From NCBI GenBank assembly GCA_031763025.1, contig JASSKH010000010.1:7063901-7127900 (forward strand): a DNA stretch of 64,000 nt, written 5' to 3'. Below, one piece after another: positions 4,384 to 62,824 of the stretch. The DNA is from Macrocystis pyrifera (taxonomy: Eukaryota > Sar > Phaeophyceae > Laminariales > Laminariaceae). The first letter of the stretch is position 1; every line of letters starts with the position of its first letter. Position numbers and translations under genes: made by a program. The notes beneath the pieces are model-generated. The model had not been told where the DNA came from. It made no database searches and worked only from the letters and a program-made list of their open reading frames with translations.

Positions 4384-4421
<38 letters not shown>
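4384..4421 (+). repeat. Poly(dC) run, 38 bases
   Basis: Uninterrupted C run. It creates long false Pro/Gly frames on the two strands. Confidence 0.98.
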
Positions 4422-12143: not shown

Positions 12144-12627
12144 GTGTGCCTCTCTTCTTGTCTTTCCTGTCAGTTGTGTTCTGGAGAAATTCGGTTCTGA
12201 AATCCATCCCAGTAGGGGTGGTGTAGGGGTTTGGGTTATACGGATGATCTGAGACTCTTGATATGATATCTCTAAGCTTGTGTTGTCTTGCGGTCCCCAC
12301 CTGTTGCGCGATACGTATCTTACGTATATCCACGAGTTTTCCGAAAACAGCCCAGTGTGCAGGAGCTGGTTGGTATGTTGGTATACGTAGCAGTGTGTGT
12401 GTGTTCTTCACAGTAAACCGTTCTTCTTCTCGTCGACATCCAGCAAGCCCAGTGTCCGTGCTGATTCTTCACCCTAGAAAGATACGAGCTCTGTGGTCAC
12501 AGACTACGACACAGAGATAACACACCGTAATGCATTAATAGCCTACGCAATACCATGCCTTCGCACTAGGTGCGGCCGACACAACATACATACATACGCC
12601 AGCAACCAAAATACACCAAAAAAAAGA
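12144..12627. other. Spacer with a short palindromic repeat
   Basis: Holds ctctgtggtcacag...cacagag at 12489-12516, related to copies at about 13819 and 57440. A - strand frame over 12106-12411 has a helical-looking stretch but no clear exon borders. Confidence 0.4.
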
Positions 12628-12914
12628 GCCTGTCAAGATCAATTTCGTGAGTTCGAGTCTCACCGAGTGCATGCTCATAGGGACTTTTTCTTGCATAAAA
12701 AATTGATAAGCGGAAAGCGCGAAAGCGTGAGTTGGCTACATTCGATGAAAATCGACGAGCAGTGGGAATGCTGAACCCTATGCGCGATAAAAACTAAAGG
12801 CACGTACCGGGGGGGAGAAGGGACGACACCTGTGACCACGGCTTGTCCAGAAGATCGTCGAGGGTAAAACCTCCTGCGAGTGGGCTGGAAAGTAAAAGTG
12901 ATGAAAAAAAAAAA
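12628..12914 (+). mobile_element. tRNA-headed SINE, copy 1 (5' truncated)
   Basis: Starts inside the tRNA-like head, with the B box region gagttcgagtctcac, then ctttttcttgcataaaa, a body with gcgcgaaagcgtgagttggc, atcgacgagcagtgggaatg, gacgacacctgtgaccacg and gtaaaacctcctgcgag, and a poly(A)-rich tail from 12902. It matches the fuller copies at 13898 and 17353 closely. SINEs of this kind are transcribed by Pol III from A and B boxes and moved by a LINE. Confidence 0.85.
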
Positions 12915-13897: not shown

Positions 13898-14221
13898 GCG
13901 TCCCCGGTGGCTTGGTAGGTGGTCCGCGTGCTTATCAAGATCATCGTTTCGTGGGTTCAAGTCTCACGGAGTGCATGCTCGTAGGGACTTTTTTTTGCAT
14001 AAAAAAATGATCAACGGAAAGCGCGAGAGCGTGAGTTATTATAATAGCTATATTCGATAAAAATCGACGAGCAGTGGGAATGCTGAACCCTATGCGCGAC
14101 AAAAAATAAAGGCACGTACCGGGGGGGGAAAGGGACGACACCTGTGACCGCGGCTTGTCCAGAAGGTCGCTGAGGGTAAAACCTCCTACGAGTTAGGCTG
14201 GAAGAAAGTAAAAGTGATGAT
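13898..14221 (+). mobile_element. tRNA-headed SINE, copy 2
   Basis: A full-length-looking copy. The head gtccccggtggcttggtagg carries an A box (tggcttggtagg) and the B box gggttcaagtctcac. The next block ends in ...agggac, which can pair with the first bases as an acceptor stem. The body follows as in the other copies and ends aagtaaaagtgatga without a poly(A) tail, directly before the element at 14250. Confidence 0.88.
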
Positions 14222-14249: not shown

Positions 14250-16390
14250 ACACCCTGGACAATAGACAATAGTCCAATAATAGTCTATTAATAGCTTCCT
14301 ATTGCAATTGACTGTCTATTGTGGTCCCTAATTCCAGTTAATTAAAAGGCGTCGAGCTCTATTATCCAGACAATTTCTATTAAGTGACCCCTACCTGACC
14401 CTATTGTCCAGACAAATTAATGGACCTTCTCCTAAATAAATTGTCCGGCCAATTCCAATTGACAGACTGTCTCCTGAACCAATTGTCTCGACAATGAATT
14501 CCAATTGATAGTCGGCCCCCCGAAATAGTTGTCCGGACAATTTGAATTAGTAGACTGACGATAAAAGTATTTGTCCCCACAACTCCAATTAATAGACAGT
14601 CTCCCAGATCAATTGGCCCGACAATTCCAATTTATACACAGTCTCCAAAATCAATTGTCCGGACAATTTCAATTAATTAGCGGACTGCTTTCTAAATCAG
14701 TTGTCCGGGCAATTCCAATTGATAGACAGTATACAAAAACAACTATCCCGACAATTTCGACTAATACGAAATCTCCAAAACTGCTTCAGACTATGCCATC
14801 ATTGGTGGGCAGTCTCCAAAATTAACTGCCCGTACATTTCAAAACAACAGTGCATACGGATTACTTTGTTTCGTGAAAACTTTTTTTAATGATTTACATC
14901 TGAGCACATGGGCTAAGAGGTATCAAAACTTCCTACCTGAGGAGATAAAATACAAAACTAACGTTGAGGTGTCCCGCCCTTTCCTGCTTATGCCTTGGAC
15001 AATAGACCTATCAATAGACTATTGCCCCTACAGCAGAGTCACGAAGTTGTCTATTATTTGGAATTGTCCGGGCAAGTGATGTCATAGACTGTCTAGCAAT
15101 TGAAATTGTTTAGACAATTGATCTTGGATACTGTCTAACAATTGGATTTATTCGGACAATTGATATCGGGCACTGTTTAACGATTGGAATTGTCCAGACA
15201 AATAATTTTGGAGACTCTCTATCAATTGAAGTTGCCCTGACAATTGATTTCAGAGATTGTCCATTAATTGGAATTGTCTGAACAATTGATGTTTGGTGCT
15301 TTTCAATAATTGGAATTGTCCAGACAAATGAGCTCGGAGACTGCCTATCAATTGAAATTGTGCAGGCAAATGATTTCACAGGCTGTCCATTAATTGGAAT
15401 TGCTTGAACGATTGATATCGGGTGATTTAAATGAATTAGACTTGTCGGGGCAACTGCTTTAAGATACCGTCTATTATTTGTAATTGTCCGGACAATGGGA
15501 TTCGGAAGCGATCTACTAATTGGAATTGTCATGACTATCGAGTTTAAGAGGGCTCTGTTATTTGAAAGGTGGCAGCTACTTGTAGAACTACATTTGATTT
15601 CGTCAGTACACAACAGTACCACCATGCTACTATTATTGCCTCTACAATTGTGACAGGATCGGGAACTTCCCTCAATACGCAATCATTTGCAAGGTCCTTT
15701 ATTGTGCCATATTACGAGTAGTATCAATTCAATGGGGAGTGTCTATCATAATACAATAACTACTAACTGTAGGTACACGGCCATGACATTTATCGAGCAA
15801 TTGATTTCTTGCGCGGCATCTGAAATGAATTGTGCGGACAGATCCGTTTGGACAATTCCATTTAATTGACAGCACCCCAAATCAATTGTGCGGACAATTT
15901 CAGTTAATAAGCAGCAGCCGAAATCAATTGTTCAGACAAATCCAATTAATAGACAGCTCCCGAAATCAATTGTCTGAACAATTTCAGTTAGTGGACAACA
16001 CCCGAAATCAATTGTCTGGATAATTCCAATTATTGGATAGCACCCGAAATCAATTTGCTGAATAATTCCAATTAATTGGCAGTCTCCACAACCAATTGTT
16101 TGGACAATTCCAATTCATAGACACACTCGAAACCTATTGCTCACACAATTCCAACTAGTAGATGGTATTCGAAATCAATTGCCTGGACAATTCCAATTCA
16201 TAGGCAATCGCCGAAAACAATTGCCTGGCCAATTTCAGTTAATGGGCAATCGCCGAAATCAATTGTATTGACAATTTCAATTAATAGACAGTCACCAAAA
16301 ACAATTGTCAAGACAAATCCAATTAACACACATCCTCCTGAATCAATTGTAGACACAATAGACTATTGGAATAGTAATTGTCCAGGGTGT
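14250..16390. mobile_element. Foldback-like element built of satellite arrays
   Basis: The outermost 14 bp are perfect inverted repeats: acaccctggacaat at 14250-14263 and attgtccagggtgt at 16377-16390. Inside lie three arrays of a ~42 bp unit (core caattgtccggacaattcca, then a tagacagtctcc-type segment): about 14400-14860 in one orientation, 15080-15545 inverted, and 15795-16350 in the first orientation again. Each unit core is itself near-palindromic (ttgtccggacaa). Short unique pieces separate the arrays. There is no credible ORF, so it would be non-autonomous. Foldback (FB) elements are known to have ends made of short tandem repeats, which is the closest match. No clear target duplication was seen. 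Confidence 0.7.
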
Positions 16391-17008
16391 CCCCAAACAT
16401 TTTTTATATACTCGTACAACGTACCTCTGATGGTACCCTCGCATTGTTGATAATTGAACAGGTGCCAGAAATCAGTCGTGAATATAAGGGAGCTCGGGAC
16501 CCTTGACGGCACATAATAACACCCTTCATATTTCGATCTGACCGATACGAAAGTACTCGTACGAGTACGTATAACACCAGATACTCAAAAATACGTACGT
16601 ACCAGGTATGTTATACCACTATGTACTGATATATAGGAACTGCTCGTAAATTAAAGCTACATCTAAGTACTCCTTATATTTTGGAACAGAGTGGAATATA
16701 CTACTACTGCTGCTGTTTTTTCTCTCACATCAGTTTGTGACCACATAATTAATTGATTCGTCTCTACGACGAGGATAAGAAAACAGGACGGACACTGGAG
16801 GTACTGATGATTGATGTGGTTGGGTAGAAAGAACTACGATTATTATTATGAAGTTTGTTATTAATAGTAGATACGAAACACACCCACTACATATGCGAGT
16901 ATTGCTGCACGATCGGATTGTTTATATGCAAAAAAAGGAAACATATTTTTCAGAACAAGATACATGTATAGTGTGTGTGTGTTCTTCACATTAATAGTAG
17001 GTAACCAT
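16391..17008. other. Spacer, nothing recognised
   Basis: AT-rich. It holds a TACCWGGTA motif at 16600 and a short tagtgtgtgtgtgttcttca string shared with about 12385. Confidence 0.4.
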
Positions 17009-17040
<32 letters not shown>

Positions 17041-17353
17041 CATCATCACTTTTACTTTCCAGCCCACTCGTAGGAGGTTTTACCCTCGACGATCTTCTGG
17101 ACAAGCCGTGGTCACAGGTGTCGTCCCTTCTCCCCCCCGGTACGTGCCTTTAGTTTTTATCGCGCATAGAGTTCAGCATTCCCACTGCTCGTCGATTTTC
17201 ATCGAATGTACAGCTAACTCACGCTCTCGCGCTTTCCGCTAATCAATTTTATGCAAGAAAAAGTCCCTACGAGCATGCACTCGGTGAGACTCGAACTCAC
17301 GAAATTGATCTTGATAGGCTCGCGGACCACCTACCAAGCCACCGGGGACGCCA
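17009..17353 (-). mobile_element. tRNA-headed SINE, copy 3
   Basis: Complete copy on the - strand. Reading from 17353 down it has gcgtccccggtggcttgg (A box), gagttcgagtctcac (B box), the shared body, and a 30-base poly(A) tail (the T run at 17009-17040). A possible short target duplication is acatg: it lies just before the head and again just after the tail. Confidence 0.9.
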
Positions 17354-19250: not shown

Positions 19251-20228
19251 TTATTCTAGCTTTGGTACTATCACATTCATCAAGATACATCTCTTAATCC
19301 TAGTGTCAAGGTTCGGGTCTGTTAGGATCGCATCCATCTTGCCTACTTGTGCCTTCCCCTTTCCTATTACTTTTACTATATCTGTATCCCAAGAGCAGTC
19401 TTTTGAGATCTCTACGCCAAGGTATGTATACTGGTCTACGATCGGCAATTCATCTTCTCCCCACTTCCAACTGAAATTTACCGGGTTTACCTTATCTTCG
19501 TTACAAACAACTACTGCGCATTTCTTGACGTTCGCCGTCACCCTCCATTTCCTGGTGTATTCTAGCGCCTTCTCTATTTGTTTCTGCAATCCTTCGGGTG
19601 TTTCTGATATCCCCACGAAGTCATCCGCAAACATCAATCCCGACACCGTATCTTCCCCTACCGTGACTCCCTGCCTTGCTCCCTCGACTGCTACTATCAG
19701 GTCGTTTATATATATCTTGAATAAGTTAGGTGACAACGTACATCCCTGTGCAACACCTTGTAAAATATCAACGTACTTCGATATTTCCCCGTCCAGCAAT
19801 ACAGCACTTCTCGCACATTCCGTCATCTTTTTCATCATTCTCCACATATTTCCTCTGATTCCTATTTCCCACAGTTTTTTTTTCCACAATTCTTTTCTCC
19901 ATACTGTGTCGTAGGCTTTCTGTACATCCAGAAAGAAACAGTACGTTGTTAGTCCCGCGTCTTTCCTGCCTTGAATAATCTTACCTACGGTGTACACATG
20001 GTCTACGCAGCTACGGTTTGGCCTATACCCTGCTTGTCCTTCGCTTATTTTGTCTTCCTTCTCCATCATCGTTCCCATTCTATCGTTCAAAATCTTACAA
20101 AATGTTTTGCCTACTGTGCTTAGTAGCGTTATCCCACTATAGTTCCCCGGGTCAGCCTTACCTCCTTTCTTGAATAAATTTACTACTACTCCTTCTCTCC
20201 ACCTCCTAGGTGCGTACTCGTTTTCCAT
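19251..20228 (-). pseudogene. LINE reverse transcriptase
   Basis: 325 codons covering the RT fingers and palm: a NYSGITLLSTVGK block near residues 29-41, FLDVQKAYD at 99-107 (first catalytic Asp), GVAQGCTLSP at 158-167, and the active-site FADD at 200-203, followed by the thumb with YLGVEIS. The sequence is well preserved, so the copy was probably lost recently compared with other dead LINEs. It ends at a stop just before the C-terminal region. Confidence 0.92.
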
Positions 20229-20863
20229 ATCCAGTTATACAACATAACCATCATGGTAGGCATTCCTTCTCCCCCGTACTTCATAGATTCATTCACTATT
20301 TGGTCTGCTCCTGTTGCCTTTCTATTCTTAAGTTTAGCTACACACTTCTTTACTTCTTCCCTTGTGAACTCTCTCTGTAACCCTCCCGAACCACTGTCTT
20401 CCTTTTCTGATGTATCTACGTTCGCCTCTGTCCACGCGTTGATGTCCTTCTCGAATTCTGCATCGAATGTTTCGTTGGCTGTGGGTGTTCCTAGCTTTCG
20501 GTAATGCTCTACTAGTACCTCCCTTTTCCCCTTCGAACTACTAACCATTTTACCGTTCAGTGCTCTTAGAGTAGCTATTCCCGTGTCTGCCTCTCCTGCT
20601 TGTTTGCCAAGTATCCCTTTTATCCCTACCCACATCTGCTTCATCCCGCCCTCAAGGTCTTCATTCGTTTTATTTACTACGTCTTTCCATATCCGTTTCT
20701 TCTTCTCTACCATCTCTTTTACTTTCTTTCTAGCTATAGCATATTCCTCCCACCCTGTCGGAGTTTTACTCGATGTATACCTTGCGTGTGCCTTTCCCCT
20801 TGCTCTTATAGCCTCTTTCACTTCTTCGTCCCACCATTTTACCGCTCTGTTGCATACTATCAA
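20186..20863 (-). pseudogene. LINE linker and start of the RT domain
   Basis: 225 codons in a different frame from its neighbours. The first part is a basic, helical linker. The end (FTREEVKKCVAKLKNRKATG, then ADQIVNE) is the conserved beginning of a non-LTR reverse transcriptase. It overlaps the next frame by about 40 bp, which marks a frame change inside the RT. Confidence 0.85.
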
Positions 20864-20936
20864 CTTCTTCCCTATTACTTTACTTGCTGTGGTCTAGACC
20901 AACTGCTCCCATCCTTCCATTATCCTAGCTCCTGCA

Positions 20937-22025
20937 TCATCCCTTTCTATATCGTTCCTTGTTGTACCTATTCATTGCAACAGCTCGGAAAAATTCTCTG
21001 CATTTTTGGCCATCTCTTCTTGGAACTCTTCCCGTTTTTCTTTTTACTTCTAGTTTATATATTCTCCATCGATACAATTTCCTACCTCTTCTATGTTTGA
21101 TGACTCTCGTCTGTTGACTGTCTGTCCATATTAGACAGTGATCCGTAGTTCCTATGTCCGCTGCGCATACATGTAGTTCCGTTTCCTTACCACTTCCATT
21201 TTCTACTACTGTAAAGTCAAGGTTAGAGCTTTCTCCTTTTTGTATGCACTGTCTAGTCCATTCCGGTTCTTCCGTTTTTACTCTGTCGTTCAACGTTTTC
21301 ATCTCGTTGTGCTTGAGGAACTTCAACATCTCTTCCCCATTCTTATTCTTTGTTACTTCCCCATATTGTCCAATGTTCTCATTCAGTTTGCTTGCCCTCC
21401 CAATTCTTGAGTTAAAATCTCCCACTAGTACTACTTCTCCTTGCCTCGTATACTTCTGTACATCTACTGCTACTTCTACGAACTTCCTATGTATATCTTT
21501 TATCGTATTCTTCGACTCTGGGGGCATATATATGTTTCCTAAGAAGTAATCTTTCGCTCCCCGCTCCCCTGGAATCTTAATCCATATGCTTTCGTCGAAT
21601 TTAGTGTCTTTGATCACCTCTATTTTGTCACACAAGTATTCTTTGACTAGGAACCCCACACCCCCCGCCCCCCTATTTTTGCTATTCTGTCCCTTCCTCT
21701 TTTTCCCTATCCATGCGTAATCTCCAACTTTGGATCCTATCTCCCCCTCTTCTTTCTCCCACGACTCTTGAATTCCCACTATGTCTAGGTCGCGCTTACT
21801 TACTTGTTCGGCAATTTCGATTATTTTGCGCTCTTTCGTGGCGAAGCCACATACATTCCATGATCCTATTCTCAGCCTCCTTTTCGTTTCACTATCCGCT
21901 CTAGTCTTACCTGTTCTTTCTCCGTTGTCGCCACGAGTATTTCTGTTATCTCTTCTTTGAGCATTATTTTCGTTTCCGTTCCTGTTCTTGCCTGCTTGTT
22001 CTGCGCCCCTATGTTTCTCCCCCAT
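20937..22025 (-). pseudogene. LINE endonuclease (APE/EEP domain)
   Basis: 362 codons. After a basic N-terminus come the EEP motifs in order: SWNVCG at residues 55-60 (catalytic Asn), QES at 86-88 (Glu), GNIYMPP at 163-169, GDFNSR at 202-207 (Asp, Asn) and TTDH at 293-296 (Asp-His pair). All expected catalytic residues are present. The enzyme nicks target DNA to prime reverse transcription. The frame stops at 20937 before the RT, which an intact LINE would not do here. Confidence 0.9.
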
Positions 22026-23570: not shown

Positions 23571-26474
23571 TCACAAATCAATGCTGAACTCTGAAGCAAT
23601 TTTAATCTTGAGCGCACGGGTCATCCGTAATTTGCGCAATTCCTTCACGACGAATTCAGGCGCAGCAGAATAAATCGACCGCAAAGACTCCCACGTGCGC
23701 TCCTCTGCTTCGAAACCATCCCAATCGACCAAGACAATCACCTCGTTGGCATCATCTTCGGCCACATGCACCAAAGCATTCATGCGGCATTCACCCTGCG
23801 CAAAGGAATGTTGGAAAACATCCTTCAGATCAGCGGTGACGTTCAACGTCGCATCCGCATAAAATCGTAAACGAGCCACGTGAGCTTGATGCACCTTCCC
23901 AGAAACGATGTTCTGAACTGAGTACACATGATCATGATCAGCTGCTACCACACGCCACGGACCAGTCCATGTGGACAACAATTTCGGTGTGACACCCTGC
24001 CGACGAACACGAGCATACAACACGAAATCACCAACCGCAAATTTTGGCAACACCACCTGGCCCTGAGCCTGTTTACGTTTGTTGTCGCGAGACACGGCAA
24101 CAGCTGCGCGAATATCGGCGCAAAATCTCTCCTGCTCTGCAACGACTTCACGGACGTTCGCACGCAACAAGTCAGCATTCATCACGTCAACATTCCACCT
24201 GCCATCAGACTCAGAAACGAGCGCCGAGAAATCGGTACGCGGAGCACGCCCAAACATCACGCTGTACGGAGTGCTTCGGTAACGTTCACGAAACGAAGTG
24301 TTCAAGGCCCACTGAGCGGCCGGCAAAACATCAACCCACTCCGAAACCTGACGACGCTGTTCTGACAGAATGGAACGCAGAGCACGTACCACCTCTTTTA
24401 CCATGCGTTCACACGTACCGTTCGACCACGGCGTGTAAGCGACAGCAAAACGATGTTCGATGTGCAACGCGTCGCTCAACAAAGCAAGCACCCTGTTCTT
24501 GAAATGCGTGGCGGTATCACTCACCCACACACGCGGCATCCCCAAAGTCTTACACCAGGCTAGCAAATGCTTCGCTGTGACCTCGGCTGTACAAGCCTCG
24601 GCCGGTTCCAACGCCACGTAGTTGGACAAATCATCCATGATGACCAAAACATATCGGAAACCATCCTCATCAGGCAGGCCATCGCTACCTTCGGGCCCGC
24701 TGTGGCCAACATACAAAAAATCAAAGTGCACCACTTCTCCCGGAGCGGTACCATGCACCGTGTCTCCGTAGGGACGAGGAATGAGTGCACCTGCACGCGT
24801 GTCTACACAGTGCAAACACTGGCGAACGAATTCGCGAACCTGAGAATCCATGTGAGGCCAAACACAATATTCCTTCAGGCGAAACAAAGTCGGCGCCACA
24901 CCACGGTGACCAGCCGAGCGCATGTGCGCGCACACCATCAAACGAGTTTGAAGAGCAAGATCATCCGGCGGAATCCACAAGACGTCACGCACCCCAACAC
25001 GCACACGAAACAAACCATCATCGGCCAAGGTAGCTTGACCGAAGGTTGTCGAAAATTCATGAACACCAACGCCGATACGAGCGACAGACCTTTGTTGCGA
25101 GGCACGAATCACATCCAATGCGGGAAGCGAATCGTCAGCATTACATGGGCTGTGCACGGCAACCGAACGAACAGGCACCGTAGGAACTTTGACCCAACGA
25201 GACAACAGATCCCCCCAACAGTTTCGATCGCCAGGGATGTGTTCGATTGCATAGCGGTATTGTCCTAAAACACCCTTCCAATTCTCTAGGCGTTGTGCCA
25301 TGGTCTTTGTGACCGTCGTGACACACTTCTCCGGATTGAAAATGTACTGCAAGTTTCGATGATCAGTAAAGATATGAACACCACCCCAAAGCAGGTATTC
25401 GAGCCTCCGGAACGTATTAACGATCGCAAAACCTTCTTTGTCGACAGTCGCCCAGCGCAACTGCGAACCTGTGAACGAACCACTCAGAAATCCGAGAGGC
25501 TCGTGAGACATGCTTTCCAACGCCAATCCACTGCGAAATTCGTGTTCAGGCACTTGGGTGAGAAAACTACCCCAATGGAAATCAGAAGCGTCAGGAAACA
25601 TCAAAACAACGCACCCGGGACGAGGATGATGAAGCGTCACTGCTTGCGCCACCAAACCCCGTGCGGCATTCCACGCCCGCACCCGATCCTCCGTCCACGC
25701 GGTATCCTTGATGACACGATTGCGCGCCACTCGCTTAGTCCGACGTGTAGCCCCAACAAGGAGCTCCTCCAAAAAATCACGTAACGGTGCTACCGTTTCC
25801 GCTAAACGTGGTAACGATGTACGCAACCAGTTGACAGCCTGCAAGAATTGCATTAGTTCTCCAGCGTTTTTGGGACGACGCATTTCACTTAAACCTTGCA
25901 CTCGAGCGGGGTCATGGGACACGACACCATTGGAATACACCTTACCACACCAGACCAGTTCACGAGAGAAGAAGGTACACTTGTGGGCGGCGACAAACAG
26001 TCCAACATTCTCCAGGCGTTCAAGAATGTCATCAAGCAGCTGCAGAAGAGCTTCTTCGGTGTCTGCGAAAAAGAAAACGTCATCGACCCAAACTTTGCAA
26101 TCCAAACCACGCAACACTTCAGTCATGACACCTTGGAAATAAGAAGTCGCATTCAAAACACCTTGGGGAACACGGGTAGGCGTGAACAAACCGTCGCTTG
26201 TCGCCATGGTGAAGACGTCTTGCGCCTCCGGAGCCAAAGGCATCTGCCAGTACCCTTGAAGTAGGTCCAGCTTGCCGAAGAAACGCGCCCCCAGCAGATC
26301 TCCCATGTCTTCATGGTTGGGCATGACGCCCGGGGACTTCTCCACCTGTGCGTTCACCGCCGAGTGGTCGCTCACCAAACGGAAAGAGTCCTTCTTGGGC
26401 ACCGCCATCGCCGGACTCGCCCACACCGCCTGGATGTTGTGGTAGACAAAGCCAAAAAAACACCAAAGCAGCAA
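23571..26474 (-). CDS. RT-RNase H-integrase-chromodomain region
   Basis: A 967-codon frame with the reverse transcriptase (VWVDDVFFFAD at the active site), RNase H (MFPDASDFHWG), the integrase with an HHCC zinc finger (HMRSAGHRG...CLHCVD) and the integrase core (VSDTATHFKN, then YTPWSNGTCERM). Near the end NEVIVLVDWDGFEAEERTWE is a chromodomain-like motif, which chromoviruses use to target marked chromatin. It works with the gag-protease region of the same element. Confidence 0.94.
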   Translation of the reverse strand: MLLWCFFGFVYHNIQAVWASPAMAVPKKDSFRLVSDHSAVNAQVEKSPGVMPNHEDMGDLLGARFFGKLDLLQGYWQMPLAPEAQDVFTMATSDGLFTPTRVPQGVLNATSYFQGVMTEVLRGLDCKVWVDDVFFFADTEEALLQLLDDILERLENVGLFVAAHKCTFFSRELVWCGKVYSNGVVSHDPARVQGLSEMRRPKNAGELMQFLQAVNWLRTSLPRLAETVAPLRDFLEELLVGATRRTKRVARNRVIKDTAWTEDRVRAWNAARGLVAQAVTLHHPRPGCVVLMFPDASDFHWGSFLTQVPEHEFRSGLALESMSHEPLGFLSGSFTGSQLRWATVDKEGFAIVNTFRRLEYLLWGGVHIFTDHRNLQYIFNPEKCVTTVTKTMAQRLENWKGVLGQYRYAIEHIPGDRNCWGDLLSRWVKVPTVPVRSVAVHSPCNADDSLPALDVIRASQQRSVARIGVGVHEFSTTFGQATLADDGLFRVRVGVRDVLWIPPDDLALQTRLMVCAHMRSAGHRGVAPTLFRLKEYCVWPHMDSQVREFVRQCLHCVDTRAGALIPRPYGDTVHGTAPGEVVHFDFLYVGHSGPEGSDGLPDEDGFRYVLVIMDDLSNYVALEPAEACTAEVTAKHLLAWCKTLGMPRVWVSDTATHFKNRVLALLSDALHIEHRFAVAYTPWSNGTCERMVKEVVRALRSILSEQRRQVSEWVDVLPAAQWALNTSFRERYRSTPYSVMFGRAPRTDFSALVSESDGRWNVDVMNADLLRANVREVVAEQERFCADIRAAVAVSRDNKRKQAQGQVVLPKFAVGDFVLYARVRRQGVTPKLLSTWTGPWRVVAADHDHVYSVQNIVSGKVHQAHVARLRFYADATLNVTADLKDVFQHSFAQGECRMNALVHVAEDDANEVIVLVDWDGFEAEERTWESLRSIYSAAPEFVVKELRKLRMTRALKIKIASEFSIDL

Positions 26475-28713
26475 TGCACTTCGAGAGCCAGTCCCTTTTC
26501 GTCGGTTCGTACCGACGTGGCGTTGCCTTGACAGGCTTCGCCTGTTGCTTCAGCTGCACTCGCATCGGCTCCACTTGCGCTGGCGGATCACCACACAGCG
26601 CACGGCGAAAAGCACCCACGCGACGAGCCAAAATTTCGCGCAAACGGGTTGCTCCGCCGACGCTTAATCCACTCTGCTCTGCCTGCTGCACGCTGTCCTC
26701 CAACGCCCGTTCTCGGGCCGTCCGCTCCTCCTCCGGATCCATGAACATGTCTGGCCCCCGGTCGACCAAATGTTCCACCGCCTTGTCCTCCGGAGCATCC
26801 ACCGTAGCCTCGGTCTGAAAAGCACGCACGGAAACCGTCACTCTGCGCGCCGCAAGGTAACTCGGAGTCTCCACACCGGTCGATACCGGCACTGCGCGAG
26901 GGCGAAGCTTCTCCAGAGCTTCACGGTAGACGTCGATGCCAAGAGCTTTCATGGTAGCCATGCCAAACAGAACGACGTTATCTGTACCAGGCATGACCGC
27001 GAAAGTGATGGGCTCCAATTTCACCGCTCCCCACGGCGTCCGTACACTCACGGCAATCGGCACCGTTTTGTGCGTGACCATCACTGAAACACCCGTAGCG
27101 GTTTTCGCCTGCTGCGGGCCATTTTCGAACGGAATTTGCAGATCGGCGCCGCCGAAATGCGAAGACAGCTGCTGAAGTAAGCCGACACCGATGGACGTGA
27201 GCGCCGACCCCGAATCAAGGATCACACGCGCCATCAGCGAACCAACCGACCCTGGCAAAGAGAGATCAGCGCGTAAACACTCAGCGCTGCGATCGACAGG
27301 CACTTCACCTGCCGTTGAACTCTGGTCGGTACCAAGAGTCACCTGACGCCATGGCTGCCCTCCTACAGCCGGCGCCGAAGAAATAGAATCGGCGGTCCAC
27401 CCCGACCAAGACGTCGAATATACAGACGGTTCCGGCGCTACCGCCCCTGCAGCAGCACCAGACACTGACTCCGCCCGCTCGGTGGATGGCGAAGTTCTCG
27501 CTCCAGCAGCACCCACCGATGTTCCAGCTCCTCCAACGTATACAGCTCGGCCGGCAACAGACGAACCAGATCCCGACCCAGCGGCTCCTGCCGCTGGCGC
27601 ACCAGAAGTTGAAGAAGCAACAGCAGAAGTTCCACCGCCCGCTGTCAATTGATTGCCACCACGGCCACCGCGCCCGCGTCCATGGTTGAATCTGCCCCGG
27701 CCGCCATTGCGGCCCCCGCGATACCCTGACGACCCGCGCCCACCACTGCTGGGAGCTGTGCCGCCACCGCGAGCTTTTGGGCAATCAGAAACATAATGGT
27801 TGGGATCACCACACTCGAAACAGACGCGAACAAACGACTTTTTCGCGGACTGCTGCTGTTTCGGTTTCTGCTGCTGTTGGCGTCGCGGTTCAGCTGCCCC
27901 TGCAGCATCTTTCCGACCATACGCCTCGATGAATTTCCACTGTTCTGCAGCAGAAAAAATTTGGTCCATGACCAATGCCGGGTCCTTCTTCCACCCTGCA
28001 GCGTACGTTAGCTGACCTTTTACGTACTTTTTGAACTCGGACGGCCATAAGCCATCCACCAACGCCATGCTCACAAATTCCGCCGGTCCGGGCAACCACG
28101 AACGGTCCTGCGCGCGGTACATGGCATGCACCGCGTGATTCTCCGCAAAATACTTTTCCATAGCGGAGTTTACCATCATCGCGCGGTCTTTGACGGATGT
28201 TTCACCGCCCTGCTTTTCATCGCGCCTCATTGAGAGAACGCGACGCAAGTCCGCTGCCGCCCGCGAGGTGTCAAATCTGTTGCTGGTGGTTGTGTAACCA
28301 GCGTGCTGCCTAACAGCGTCCAACAACTCCGAGGCGGTCATCGTAGTCTGATGCTTGTAAAATCCCTCAAAACACCGATGAATGTAATTGGGGATAAGCT
28401 GGCCCATGCTCACTTTGGAGTGCTGAACCACCCCCTGAGCGTTGGCGAGCTGCAGCCGTTCCTCATAATCGAGGTACGCTGCGTAAAAAACACGAGAGGC
28501 CTGCTCGGTCCACACCTCTCCGTATTTCGGTGGAGTCAGAGACTCCCCTACCACCAGCGGCGTGCTTGCCGTGTGCGCCATAATCCACAGCAGTCCACCT
28601 GGACTCTGCTGTAATAACGGAGAAACTGCCGCCTGACCTGTGCGTCCTCCAGCTCCCGGAGCGTCCTCCCCTGCTGTGCGCTTCAAGCCGTTTCGATCCG
28701 TCCAACGGGCCAA
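26311..28713 (-). CDS. Gag and protease region of the Ty3/gypsy element
   Basis: An 800-codon frame. The N-terminal half is Gag-like (capsid-type helices), followed by a CCHC zinc knuckle (CFECGDPNHYVSDC), a Gly/Arg-rich stretch (GGRGRFNHGRGRGG) and a Ser/Ala-rich linker. The protease follows, with the Asp-Ser-Gly active site (VILDSGSALTSIG). Gag packages the RNA and the protease matures the polyprotein. Treated as part of a fossil or near-intact mobile element. Confidence 0.92.
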   Translation of the reverse strand: MARWTDRNGLKRTAGEDAPGAGGRTGQAAVSPLLQQSPGGLLWIMAHTASTPLVVGESLTPPKYGEVWTEQASRVFYAAYLDYEERLQLANAQGVVQHSKVSMGQLIPNYIHRCFEGFYKHQTTMTASELLDAVRQHAGYTTTSNRFDTSRAAADLRRVLSMRRDEKQGGETSVKDRAMMVNSAMEKYFAENHAVHAMYRAQDRSWLPGPAEFVSMALVDGLWPSEFKKYVKGQLTYAAGWKKDPALVMDQIFSAAEQWKFIEAYGRKDAAGAAEPRRQQQQKPKQQQSAKKSFVRVCFECGDPNHYVSDCPKARGGGTAPSSGGRGSSGYRGGRNGGRGRFNHGRGRGGRGGNQLTAGGGTSAVASSTSGAPAAGAAGSGSGSSVAGRAVYVGGAGTSVGAAGARTSPSTERAESVSGAAAGAVAPEPSVYSTSWSGWTADSISSAPAVGGQPWRQVTLGTDQSSTAGEVPVDRSAECLRADLSLPGSVGSLMARVILDSGSALTSIGVGLLQQLSSHFGGADLQIPFENGPQQAKTATGVSVMVTHKTVPIAVSVRTPWGAVKLEPITFAVMPGTDNVVLFGMATMKALGIDVYREALEKLRPRAVPVSTGVETPSYLAARRVTVSVRAFQTEATVDAPEDKAVEHLVDRGPDMFMDPEEERTARERALEDSVQQAEQSGLSVGGATRLREILARRVGAFRRALCGDPPAQVEPMRVQLKQQAKPVKATPRRYEPTKRDWLSKCIAALVFFWLCLPQHPGGVGESGDGGAQEGLFPFGERPLGGERTGGEVPGRHAQP

Positions 28714-29026: not shown

Positions 29027-29715
29027 AGAAACTATTTTACTTTTTCAAGTCTATGACTGGTTTGGGTTCGGATATGGGGAAAAAAAAAAACTGGTTTGTT
29101 CAGTTGTTTAATTTCTAAATATGGTTTGGGTTTCGGTATAGGAAACAAAAAATGATTAGTTGAGTAATTTCATGTCTGAATCCAGGTTGTGTTATGATAT
29201 TGGAAAAAAAAACTGGTTAGTTCAATTGTTTCATGTCTAAAACTGTTTTTTGCGTTTTTGGTATGGCAAAAAAAAAAGTTAGTTGAGTATTTCATGTCTA
29301 AATCCGGTTTTTTTGTCATGATAAAGGGGGGAAAAAAAAAAGGGGGGGGGGGGGGGGGAAACTGGTTAATTCAATTGTCTCACGTCTAGATCTGGTTTTT
29401 GCGTTCTTGGTATGAGAAAAAAAAAATAGTTAGTTGAGTAATTTCATGGCTAAATCCGGTTTTTGTAATCATATGGGGAAAAAAAAATGTTTCATGTCTA
29501 AATCCGGTTTTTTGCGTTTCGGTATGGGGAAAAAAAAGATGTTAGTTGAGTAATTTCATGTCTGCATCCGGTTTTTGTAATCATATGGGGAAAAAAAAAA
29601 AACTGGTGAGTTCAATTGTTTCATGTCTAAATCCGTTTTTTTGCGTTTCGTTATGGGGAAAAGAAAAATGTTAGTTGAGTAATTTCATGTCTAAATCTGG
29701 TTTGTGTTTTTATGG
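29027..29715 (+). repeat. Minisatellite, ~62 bp unit, about 11 copies
   Basis: Units of the type gttagttgagtaatttcatg, tctaaatccggtttttg, then a ggtatgggg/A-run segment. It begins directly beside the LTR element, which may have inserted at its edge. A 17-base G run (29342-29358) interrupts one unit. Confidence 0.9.
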
Positions 29716-42299: not shown

Positions 42300-42400
42300 T
42301 GGTGCAAATCGACGAGCACTGGGAAAAATGAGCCCTCTGCGCGGAAAAAACCAAGGCATGGGTTACATGGCGTCGCTGGGCCAGGCTTTCGCTTTTCATA
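42300..42400 (+). repeat. SINE body fragment
   Basis: Contains caaatcgacgagcactggg and a ccctctgcgcggaaaaaacc segment like the SINE body, without head or tail. Confidence 0.5.
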
Positions 42401-42454
42401 TTTTATTAAAGTTTGTTTTGGTCATAATTGTTTTTGACTGTTTCGTTTCTTTTT

Positions 42455-42770
42455 TAAGTGGGGGTTTGGGAGTATAATCATCAAGCTCTCTCTCGGCCCC
42501 GCTTGGTAGACTTTGAGGGTTCGAACACCGGCAGAAGCTTTGGTTTTGTTTTTCGAAAGCTTGAGAGCGTTAGTTGACTAAATTTCGGTCAAATGACGAG
42601 CAGTGGGAATGATCAAGCCCTTTGGGCGACAAAAAAAAAAGCACGTGGCGGTGGGGTAGAAAGAAAAGGCACGTGTGACCACGGTTTATCTAGCTCGCTG
42701 AGCTGAGCGTCACAACCTCGTGTGACATGACCTGGGAAGTAAACCGTGCCGCGGTAAAAATGGGGGGGAG
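42455..42770 (+). mobile_element. Diverged SINE with a different tRNA-like head
   Basis: The body (gagcgttagttgac, atgacgagcagtgggaatg, gtgtgaccacggtttatc, cctgggaagtaaa) matches the SINE family at 12.6-17.4 kb, but the head differs (cttggtagactttgagggttcgaacacc). The B box ggttcgaa is clear. Confidence 0.65.
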
Positions 42771-42904
42771 TATTTGTTGTGCACGGTGACGGAGGCCACA
42801 TTTAGTTTTACAGCCAGGAGGTATTTTTGAAACTGGAGAATCGTTGTTAGAGGTGTACATACCCCCCTAACAACTGAGCCACCATATCAGTCAGGGCGAA
42901 TTTC

Positions 42905-42992
42905 TAATTACCGTTGACCACGGTTTGTCCAGAATAGTCGCTGGGCCTTGAAACCTCGGGCGAGATGAGCTGGAAAGTAGAAAGCGATGATA
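42905..42992 (+). repeat. SINE 3' fragment
   Basis: gttgaccacggtttgtccag, then aaacctcgggcgagatgagc and ggaaagtagaaagcgatga, equal to the last ~85 bp of the SINE. Confidence 0.7.
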
Positions 42993-46110: not shown

Positions 46111-46353
46111 CCTTTGCCATCAGCCATTTCAACCGATGGTAGCTTCCTTCCCACCATCCGACGTTTTCGGCTCTAACGAAAACACTCGTTCGATGATTGC
46201 TGAGCCGTGGGATTGTGTATCAGCCCCTTTGACCTGCGTTATTTCGAAAGGTCTATTTGTTGGAGATGTATTGTAGAGCCCCCCCCCCCCCCATAAGGAC
46301 CCTCGGAAACATATAGGCGCTATATCGCAATATCGAAGCACGGGGTCCGGGGT

Positions 46354-46379
46354 GGGGGGGGGGGGGGGGGGGGGGGGGG
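46354..46379 (+). repeat. Poly(dG) run, 26 bases
   Basis: Uninterrupted G run between the minisatellite and gene B. More G runs of 8-9 follow at 46385, 46455 and 46577. Confidence 0.97.
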
Positions 46380-46611
46380 TTGAGGGGGGGGGAATATCGA
46401 AAACGTAGGAGGGGAGTTGAGCTCAGGCAGTGCCGTCAGCCTTCATTTCAGTGGAGGGGGGGGGGGGGATTGGAAACTCCCATGGGAGCAGTGATAGGGA
46501 GAGAAGGAGGTGGGCTGCAGCAGCGAAGTCGAACTCCTGAATTCAGAGGGAGTTGGGCGCGGGCCGGGGTTGGCGGGGGGGGGGGAGGGGTCTCTATACA
46601 AGTGTCGGTTC

Positions 46612-55831: not shown

Positions 55832-55864
55832 GGGGGGGGGGGGGGGGGGGGGGGGAGGGGGGGG
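55832..55864 (+). repeat. Poly(dG) run, interrupted once
   Basis: 24 G, one A, 8 G. Confidence 0.97.
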
Positions 55865-59529: not shown

Positions 59530-62289
59530 CTATTCGATGGCAGCACCGGCTGCCCCCTCCTCCCCTTCACCGGGCAAGTTGTCGCCTATAAGAGCATGGA
59601 CGAACAAATCGCCGAGCACCTCAACCCGAAAAAAGGTTTTGCCCACGCTAGTTGTACAATACGCGAGGGCTAAAATAAAACGTAAAGGGAGCAGCACGGA
59701 CATCTCCCTGCGCGTGTACTGGAAACGAGTCCCTCGCGCTATGCAACAGTGAAAAACGGCGAAAGAAAGAAGAAAAACTACACATGAACGGGTGAAACAG
59801 ATTAGCACATACCAGGTACAGCGTACTCACACGCTGTAGATCTTTTGAACATGCCCCCCGCTCCGTTCCGCCCTGCCACCCTTCCCTGCCAACTCCCCAG
59901 CATACAAAACAAAAAGACAATATACTCGAAAACCAACAAACGGAAAGCAAGACATGTTAAGCCGTACGTGGTAAGAAAAAAAAAGAAGTTTCTTTAAAAA
60001 AAAAATGTACGAGTACGTACTATAGTTGTTGCTACTTGCTTTGCTGTCAAAACCGTTTTCAATTACCATACTACTTCGTACGTACGTATATGGAGCAAAT
60101 TACTCAAGGTGGCATCACGACAGTCCAGCAAGTATACACGTACGATGATCGCATAGCACACGCGTCGATTTTTGCAGCCTGATTATTGCTCCTGCAACGA
60201 GCCCCCCACACACGTGTCGGCGACAAGCTCTCGATCGCCGGGCATGCAGGTTAAAAACGGCAATGTGCACACTAAATTACATTCCGTTCCACCGCCATGC
60301 CTCGGGCGGAAATCACGGCAACGCCGACACCGAGCCCCCCCCCCCGTATTTCCCTCTTCCCACACCCCCTAGAGTATCTGTAAAAAAAAAACAAACAATC
60401 GATCTTTTTTTGCGTTGCCATGACTGCGCTTTCACGGTACCAGGAGCGCAATGCCGGCTGTGGCGGTAAACCATTCGGCCCAAGGGGACAGCATCACTTG
60501 AATAAAATATACCCGGCCGCCTTGTGTTCCCAACTCTCCTCCAACCCGCACAAACGAAACGCCACGAAAAATCGAGACCCCCGTTCGTTTGACGAAGGAA
60601 GGCACTTTTCGACCCCGCGCAAAAATGCAAAGCGGGTGAGTCGAGCACATCTCTTAAAATTAAGAGTTTTTGAATCCACACCTCCTCGGCGACCCAGGCA
60701 AGTGTGGTAGTGTTCTTGGCCAATATTTTTTTGCAATCTTCCACCAAGAAACCTCAAGCACGTTCTAGGGATTTCTATCCGAAAATCCTCCCGGAAGACC
60801 CAAACACTATTCGACTAATTGCCCGCAAAAGGCTCTCTTCCAGGAGGCCGAAGTTTTTTCTTCGAGGAAAATTACGTCCGAAAATCCGTCTCCCTGAAGG
60901 CCGGGCGGGCGAGGGGCTGCTTCTGCTTCTGCTGCCCCTGCTGATTGTGTGGCTGTGTTTACCAGGCGCCGAAGTACTCCTTCTGCCACTGCACTTTCAG
61001 CTCGTCGCAAGTCGTCCCGATCGCCTGTAGAAAATAACGAAACGTAAGGGGAGCGAAACACGATGTGATGCTGGTGTTGTGGCCGTCGAGCGTACGCGAA
61101 GAAAGCATAAAAGTGCACGGATAGGCGCACGGTACCTTCCGACTCATTTCAGGCCGCAACACCCCACCGAAATATCCCCTCCCCCCCTCCCTCCTCTCCA
61201 TTTGCTTGATATTTTGTATTGTATCAGACGAGAGCATGGAGGCCAACGTTTTTTTTCTTCTCGTGTTTCAAAATAATATTGATCTTACCAACAAATTATG
61301 TGTGCGCTATTAATAGCTCGGCACGGCCCCCGCGATCGTGAGGTTTATCTTCTTACATGCACATAGAGTGTGAATGTTTTGCTGGCAGTTTTGATGAAAT
61401 TTATCTAGCCCCCCCCGATACTATATACCTGGTATATATTGGTTGGGATGGCGTCGCTGCGCGAGATACACACATCCAGGGTACCGTTTTTTTTTTTTTT
61501 TTTTTTGCGGTTACCACGGCTGGCGGTCAAGTCAGATCCTTCTTGTGCGGGGAGAACCTTTGTTTCGCACAAGGGGGATGATCGTATCCCGTAGAGTGTA
61601 TATGGTAAGACACCCACGAGGCAGTTACATAGTAAACTCATTTCTGTCTCTGGAAGTGGCCACACCAGAAATTAATTCAATTCATTGATGCTGTCATCCA
61701 TACGCAAGAAAATCCGCCTCAAAAGCGGTTCTTAGTAGGACGCAGCTCGCCCTTCATGCGACTCGCCCAAAACCTCGCGGCCCTTCGCGCGTAGCGCAAG
61801 CAATGTCTGCCTGGTCGGTGAAAACCCGACGTGCTCCGTGCCGGAATTGGAGGGATGCGAGGGTTTATTGTCATACGACCACGGCCATGCATGATATTGA
61901 GTACCCCCCCCCCCCCCCCCCCCCCCCCCCCATCCAGCAAAACGCCTTGGCGCCGACAAACATACCTCCTCGACTTTGGGGTTGGCACCACAGTACAGCA
62001 CGAGCCACGGGAGGTTGGCTTTGCCGTCCGCGCCGCCGTCACCGCTCGCTGGGGCCTGAGAAGAAAGCAGAAGAAAAAAATGGAACCCGAAACCAACGTG
62101 TGCGGCCGCGCACGCATTCACCGCGGCAAGAGCGTGGAAACGCCGGAGAGAAAGTAAGTCTTGATGAACGGATATATCAAGTTATATATTTGTGTGTATA
62201 TATATCCTAACGGAAGACGTTATTAATGGTACAGCAGTAGTAGTCCAAGTGGTGGTCAAAACCCCTCCGAATGCGCACGCACCCCCCCC

Positions 62290-62321
<32 letters not shown>

Positions 62322-62824
62322 CCCCCCGTTTCGGTGAAGTAGGAACACCTGGTACTTGCCTGTGCGTGAATTGTTCAGCGATTTGCCGCACACGCTCTCT
62401 CGCCTGCCAAAACGACAGGGAAAGCAGCGCCAAAACTCGTATACTCCGGAGTACACGACAGCAGCATGACCCAAAGGTCAGGGTGCTCGCGGTGCAGCAG
62501 CGGCTTCCCCCCTACAAGAGCAAGCCGCAATAGGCCAAACAAACCCGCTTGACCACCACCACCACGATCACCAGCAGCAGCGGCTGCGGCGGATATATGC
62601 GCGGTAGCCGTTACAGCGGTCGCCGCACACGATGTGAAAATTGGCTGTATTGTGCTGCGCGATTGGCTCCTATATATATATTATAGCGCGTTGCGTTTAG
62701 CGTCTGTCAACGGGCGACACACCTGACCGGAACCTGCTCGCTGGACTTTCCCGACGACAGTGGGGTCTGCCTTCATCAGCTTCTCCTTGGACACAATCTG
62801 GCTGGTGTCTAGACGAGCCGATCC
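59530..62824 (-). CDS. Gene C: five small exons, unknown protein
   Basis: On the - strand exons 62824-62723, 62403-62356, 62055-61966, 61024-60963 and 59647-59530 (TAG) join without breaking frame (phases 0,0,0,2). Borders: atctcag|G, cag|gtgtgt, ttggcag|G, caa|gtacca (or cag|gcaagt, a GC donor that would break phase), cttctcag|G, gag|gtatgt, ttctacag|G, ctg|gtaaac, caactag|C. The visible 139 residues include DTSQIVSKEKLMKADPTVVG, RERVRQIAEQFTHRQ, ANLPWLVLYCGANPKVEEAI, DELKVQWQKEYFGA and FRVEVLGDLFVHALIGDNLP. The start lies upstream. No family recognised. The first, third and fourth exons are the firmest. An opposite-strand ATG frame overlaps the last exon (59528 onward), so that one is weakest. 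Confidence 0.55.
61656..61931 (-). repeat. Dispersed repeat with G-run end, copy 3
   Basis: Inserted in an intron of gene C. Begins (on the - strand) with the 28-base G run (C run at 61904-61931), then catgcatggccgtggtcg, the agcacgtcgggttttcacc block, and ends at tctggtgtggccac (61656). Confidence 0.85.
62282..62320 (+). repeat. Poly(dC) run, 39 bases with one A
   Basis: 8 C, A, 30 C, in an intron of gene C just downstream of its second exon. Confidence 0.97.

Follow-up and report, generated by a model that had tools for sequence, protein, structure and literature searches.

Foldback elements have been reported, in the published extracts on which we draw throughout, as a source both of inversions, in the case of Galileo, and of satellite DNA, in the case of Tetris (PMC4079207). 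The excerpted accounts of Galileo, a Drosophila transposon of the P superfamily, place binding sites for its THAP-domain transposase in inverted arms with internal tandem repeats, and they ascribe its extended terminal inverted repeats to recombination and repair (PMC3573991, PMC3688188). Twelve chimeric copies of Galileo have unmatched flanks and not the 7-bp duplication; assembly error was raised by the authors as a cause and judged unlikely (PMC3573991). In Tetris, a foldback element of Drosophila virilis, each terminal inverted repeat contains a satellite-like array, a stretch of which is common to the outer domain (PMC4079207). Tm1, a Mutator/Foldback element of root-knot nematodes, has a short outer motif followed by short tandem repeats that vary in number (PMC3169594).

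Here we describe a locus that resembles these systems, within a 64-kb window (the whole stretch of 64,000 nucleotides of Macrocystis pyrifera DNA that was analysed). It looks like an old foldback-type element with an extra arm: an unusual layout, and not a new kind of thing. The element spans 14250-16390 (~2.1 kb), and its features are these:

14250-14289, plus strand: left end; its first 14 bp equal the inverted right end, and it can be aligned over 40 columns
14359-14864, plus strand: left array (L), 12 units, all 42 bp long except for units of 37, 46, 46 and 41 bp
about 14865-14989, no strand: spacer between the left array and the inner end
14990-15071, plus strand: third, inner end, between the left and middle arrays; 11/14 of its terminal bases match
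15037-15540, minus strand: middle array (M), 12 units, with a weak extra unit running on to ~15580
~15581-15840, no strand: loop between the M and R arms, with a possible weak end remnant at ~15621-15658
15841-16343, plus strand: right array (R), 12 units, one of them 41 bp long
16311-16390, minus strand: right end; its terminal 14 bp equal the left end, and the end profile, in whose training set it is included, matches it at E 2.3e-20

The border of the element is a perfect 14-bp inverted repeat, ACACCCTGGACAAT, which has two exact matches in the 64-kb window, at 14250-14263 (+) and 16377-16390 (-). Allowing up to 3 mismatches yields 9 matches in the window against 6.04 expected, so that the exact pair alone stands out. 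The letters at the borders read GACC/ACAC on the left and GTGT/CCCC on the right. Identity between the two outer ends is unbroken over the first 14 bases, and beyond these the ends diverge; in both, inverted and at the edges of the satellite, ACACCCT lies outward of a unit-like GGACAAT. Between the ends are three arrays of one 42-bp unit in the order +,-,+, the middle array being inverted, and they are not contiguous, as the spacer and the loop intervene. Tandem Repeats Finder reported period 42 at 14428-14780, 15048-15402 and 15850-16326. We took 12 units per array, 36 in total, although units 11-12 of L are badly decayed and barely recognisable. Together they give the consensus CAATTGTCCGGACAATTCCAATTAATAGACAGTCTCCGAAAT; that of M alone is identical to it, whereas L is off at 1 position and R at 3. 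A preliminary description of this DNA, made from its letters, had proposed perfect 14-bp inverted ends around three ~42-bp arrays with the middle one inverted; both exact end copies at the borders, the Tandem Repeats Finder calls and the unit consensus confirm it in these respects.

The preliminary description had also held that flanks continuing the satellite past the ends would speak against such an element. No continuation was found. A two-unit profile gave 46 matches at E<=10 in the 64-kb window, 42 of them inside 14284-16366; the 4 outside the element, with E from 2.3 to 9.3, are at chance level, and none adjoins it. Likewise, the best ungapped match to CAATTGTCCGGACAATTCCAATTAATAGACAGTCTCCGAAAT is 23/42 outside and 37/42 inside, and of 28 end-profile matches in the window the single one outside the element (E 9.1) is at chance level and does not adjoin it.

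Two ends had been recognised at first; there are in fact three, a decayed inner end at 14990 having been missed. It opens with ATGCCTTGGACAAT just ahead of the middle array, and over 88 aligned columns it matches the inverted right end with a score of 70, the maximum of 200 shuffles being 36. With a profile built from the three ends, their own matches have E 4e-21, 2e-20 and 4e-14, values that show mutual resemblance only, as the three are the training set; the left end, likewise in that set, is matched over 14250-14328 (E 4.2e-14). Given this alignment of the inner end with the inverted right end, every part of a two-armed foldback is present in 14990-16390, in the order end, array(-), loop, array(+), end. 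Read inwards from their own end, the units are minus in the M and R arms and plus in the L arm.

This anatomy is matched by the pairing potential of the arms. Aligned in inverted orientation from end to loop, the M and R arms (14993-15530 with 16387-15851) are 69% identical over 542 bp. Predicted for single strands, the pairing of M with R reaches -226.7 kcal/mol, whereas 10 shuffles of R give -119.9 (sd 7.0) and reverse-complemented R gives -144.3; that of L with M reaches -193.9 kcal/mol, against -134.6 (sd 5.4) shuffled and -143.4 reverse-complemented. L with R, at a predicted -161.0 kcal/mol, is stronger than shuffled (-118.6, sd 2.4) and weaker than L with reverse-complemented R (-190.0), as expected from the equal orientation of L and R. 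The stretch 14990-16390 thus has long inverted repeats at its termini that can fold back, the outermost left arm being oriented like the right arm, and short tandem repeats, the 42-bp units of which 12 were cut per arm, lie within them. The foldback-like nature of the element, as first proposed, is therefore well supported: the M and R arms pair beyond shuffled and reverse-complemented controls, the ends are common, and the satellite stops at the ends. The further proposal of a distinct three-array form was not demonstrated, since 14990-16390 is already a complete two-armed foldback and the third arm is more simply read as added or chimeric. A limited literature search met no three-array foldback in print, which is a weak negative.

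The spacer (14865-14992 tested) has no significant similarity to the loop, the right flank, or the left or right end with its flank (minimum shuffle p 0.30). In the loop, 15621-15658 bears a weak likeness to the inner portion of the ends and is possibly a fourth, old end; it scores 32, with a shuffle value of 0.02 in one of 22 comparisons, and reaches only E 3.5 with the end profile.

Set beside the excerpted descriptions, the locus is like Galileo in its long inverted arms with internal tandem repeats and in its unmatched flanks, as in the chimeric copies, a likeness of architecture. Unlike the repeats of the D. mojavensis F group, which are given as ~210 bp and few, those here are 42 bp and number ~12 per arm, and there is a third array with its own end and no transposase found. 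With Tetris it has in common a tandem array inside inverted repeats and a stretch shared by array and outer domain, but the Tetris unit is ~220 bp and ~94% alike, against 42 bp and a mean of 58-69%, and duplications are described for its three complete copies (PMC4079207), whereas none was seen here. The composite ends, an outer motif and then tandem repeats, recall Tm1, whose unit, however, is ~14 bp, and which is described as a dispersed family with transposase-coding members and 8-10 bp duplications (mostly 9 bp) in 45 of 53 complete elements (PMC3169594).

The units carry a record of the age and relation of the arrays. They diverge from the consensus by 27% in L, 22% in M and 21% in R (mean identity 0.726 in L, against 0.778 and 0.790 in the other two arrays), and mean likeness within arrays is 58-69%. 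The pooled units of M and R are exchangeable, with a variance of pairwise identity of 0.00447 against 0.00445 in shuffles (p 0.45); the same test gives p 0.29 within M, p 0.08 within R and p 0.15 for all 30 units. Tests of distinctness gave p 0.22 for M against R, p 0.19 for M against L and p 0.0005 for R against L. The near-common consensus of the three arrays, together with the exchangeability of the M and R units, implies that the M and R arrays have one origin. Units at matching places in two arms show no extra likeness (p 0.13-0.19), and the possibility that M and R are a recent inverted copy of each other was rejected for want of unit-by-unit correspondence (p 0.14). A 126-bp higher-order repeat is found in M (p 0.008) and is absent in R (p 0.70), implying that the starting units were not fully uniform. 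The simplest history is that near-identical units were set out in arms and then decayed independently.

Decay at CpG positions is 41%, against 20% elsewhere, in 23 of the 24 M and R units (the 41-bp R unit and the L units were omitted from this and the positional counts below); this doubling would fit methylated repeats. We also considered, and dropped as not significant, the idea that M and R are phase-locked, with fewer indels than L: these make up 3 of 214 changes in M and R and 3 of 93 in L units 1-10, to which the test was confined (p 0.37), the count for L being 7 of 123 when its two decayed units are included.

The outer ends behave differently from the arrays. There are 0 changes in the 28 bases of the two outer ends, whereas non-CpG unit sites of M and R are 20% off consensus; the chance that both 14-bp ends would stay unchanged at the unit decay rate is ~0.002, a figure that flatters, the ends having been picked for perfection. 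With these ends unchanged, the inner end changed and the units decayed, the outer ends look kept by use while the arrays drifted, which suggests that they were in use after array decay had begun.

It had been suggested that the units provide some 30 or more palindromic protein-binding sites. The looser arms, TTG-N6-CAA, number 28 in the element against 0.8 per 2.14 kb elsewhere, but the suggestion is weakened: TTGTCCGGACAA has only 3 exact copies in the element, and its symmetry has not been kept. Base pairing of the core, unit by unit, is not above chance (in 31 units, 173 of the 248 cells pair, against 175.8 in shuffles), and upkeep of the palindrome by compensating changes was rejected, with 3 both-sides changes against 5.3 expected. 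The palindromic centre, CCGG, belongs to the decayed part of the unit. The quietest ten bases are instead the asymmetric AATTCCAATT, with 22 changes in 230 cells, and they contain 6 of the 9 positions, among 35, that are changed in no more than one of 23 units (2.8 expected, P 0.0014). Change along the unit is uneven even when CpG effects are discounted (p 1e-9 over 38 positions); it remains so when polymorphic positions 33-35 are left out as well (p 8e-5) and within the single-base classes A, T and C (p 0.002, 5e-6 and 1e-5; G 0.08). Because CCGG is decayed, pairing is at chance and AATTCCAATT is quietest, the better candidate for a protein-binding site in the unit, should there be one, is one half of the palindrome with the bases that follow it, rather than the palindrome.

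The arrays show no sign of coding. A coding repeat was considered, as 42 bp makes 14 codons and several consensus frames are stop-free, yet the open stretches are no longer than chance allows: when arrays are drawn from the observed columns, the maximum of 142 codons over the 12 M units has p 0.13 and that of 74 codons in R has p 0.80. An ORF of 190 aa at 15110-15682 (-) is without a Pfam match.

We looked for a target-site duplication of 3-12 bp within 4 bp of the outer ends and found none that is convincing; the exact borders share 2 bp only (CC/CC), and the best off-register match is 6 bp with 1 mismatch. The pair 14990/16390 has no convincing duplication either, and the 7-bp word TATATAC, which both flanks have within 60 bp of the ends, is no more than chance would give (0.16). 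If two insertions had formed a chimera, its ends would be perfect and its flanks unmatched, as observed; the 12 chimeric Galileo copies offer a precedent for this (PMC3573991), but no proof. Searches with the ends, the unit consensus and the profiles found no second copy in the 64-kb window. Pfam identified no transposase in 20 open frames of the window (18 of them among 32 ORFs of at least 150 aa), including the P-type with a THAP domain that Galileo and its superfamily would suggest; an autonomous copy could lie elsewhere. Scans of viral contigs with the unit pattern, the end pattern and a SINE word, and of genome contigs with the unit pattern, gave 0 matches each, which says little and is expected for a eukaryote, as these collections hold viruses and prokaryotes. 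In the window, Rfam at its gathering threshold gave 0 matches, as did a tRNA scan.

The surroundings are rich in other repeats. Three SINE-like copies lie round the element, at 12626-12904 (+), 13898-14221 (+) and 17041-17351 (-); the outer pair are in inverted orientation and 95-96% alike, the first lacks its 5' part, and the element's left end is 28 bp beyond the 3' end of the middle copy. The head of this repeat, with an A-box-like TGGCTTGGTAGG and a B-box-like GAGTTCGAGTCTC, is tRNA-like. Near two of the copies is a 25-bp direct repeat that begins AGTGTGTGTGTGTTCTTCACA (12392-12416 and 16970-16994, 96% identical), and decayed fragments of the SINE-like body, at 71-79% identity, occupy 42303-42991. 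By Pfam, an endonuclease ORF stands beside a reverse-transcriptase ORF at 19251-22025 (-), an arrangement that we take to be that of a LINE. The ORF at 23571-26474 (-) has reverse transcriptase, RNase H and integrase domains, by our assumption the set of gypsy elements, and a zinc-knuckle ORF (26311-28713) adjoins it; with these ORFs the window has a eukaryotic look. In viral contigs, 5 stretches matched the pattern of this gypsy-like pol and 0 encoded a relative. Farther along are a separate tandem array at 29082-29707 (period ~61-64 bp, A-rich stretches, higher periods of 112-149), runs of 28-46 C or G bases at 4384-4421, 46349-46392, 55832-55864, 61904-61931 and 62282-62327 (three of the five impure), and inverted dispersed repeats, 73-76% alike, at 52233-52531/61636-61931 and 1928-2137/61710-61913.

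We consider it probable, at roughly 60%, that the locus is a non-autonomous foldback-like DNA transposon that became three-armed, and so composite, by the joining of arms from different copies. Its normal form would be the right-hand 1.4 kb, in the two-armed order given above. The 14-bp ends would be cut by a transposase supplied from elsewhere, which, by analogy with Galileo, might also bind the repeated units of each arm as extra sites, raising the local protein concentration; such an element would have been mobile. The left arm would then have been added from a second copy, whether through ectopic recombination or through a switch of template while an excision gap was being repaired. The GGACAAT core may have been the pivot of this joining, since the ends contain it and the palindromic core of the unit supplies it in both orientations. 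Joining of an extra arm would account for the +,-,+ order, the decayed internal end and the unmatched flanks. Equally well, the left arm may have undergone an inversion at this site instead of being added. A minus-oriented stub between the left end and L was tried as the joining point and found no support: the left junction scores 48 under an all-plus model, 46 under a minus-to-plus switch and 27 under an all-minus model, the first two being equally good, and the switch point was thus not located. An assembly error may be present at the spacer, 14865-14989. The missing duplication, the single copy seen in the window and the failure to find a transposase count against the composite reading.

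Some of the same observations might be taken instead to mean that 14250-16390 is a true three-armed element, which moves whole, belongs to a family of like layout and keeps its inner end as a relic of its origin. Identical ends are found only outermost, the inner one being changed at 3/14 bases; the arrays are similar in length, with 12 units cut from each; and an unbroken match limited to the first 14 bases is expected if those alone are recognised. We nevertheless think this unlikely, because perfect ends are not accompanied by a matching flank duplication, a second copy was not seen in the 64-kb window, and the left arm deviates in its identity (0.726), in its uneven unit lengths and in being distinct from R (p 0.0005), if not from M (p 0.19). 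A mobile family with a three-armed working form, in which a transposase would cut at the outer 14-bp ends only, the unit core would be the pivot, and arm number and orientation would vary between copies, is a rather doubtful proposition.

The lack of a convincing duplication, the one locus in the window and the absence of a transposase from the scanned frames would also suit a local satellite that grew in place by slippage and underwent two inversions, with no transposon involved and with ends that are merely edge sequence carried along. This, too, seems unlikely: ACACCCT stands beyond the unit-like GGACAAT at both outer ends, inverted, at the satellite borders; a third related end adjoins the middle array; and past the ends unit matches fall to chance level in the 64 kb. 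Finally, a non-autonomous Helentron-type element (HINE), with subterminal inverted repeats round tandem repeats and rolling-circle insertion that makes no duplication, shares with the locus its short inverted repeats, satellite-like tandem repeats and want of a target-site duplication, as the excerpted account of oyster HINEs has them (PMC7492417). The array described there is short and lies between two modules, and that account describes neither inverted satellite arms nor a third end, whereas here arrays of opposite orientation form arms with an inner third end. Moreover, the borders, GACC/ACAC and GTGT/CCCC, are not a TT insertion site, although subterminal repeats would not mark an exact border. 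This origin seems improbable.

If copies of this element vary in arm number and orientation, the host genome would be a record of the gain and flipping of arms. The exchangeable, independently decayed units of the element reveal, in addition, which positions of the repeat have been kept, and so provide a pointer to a possible binder.
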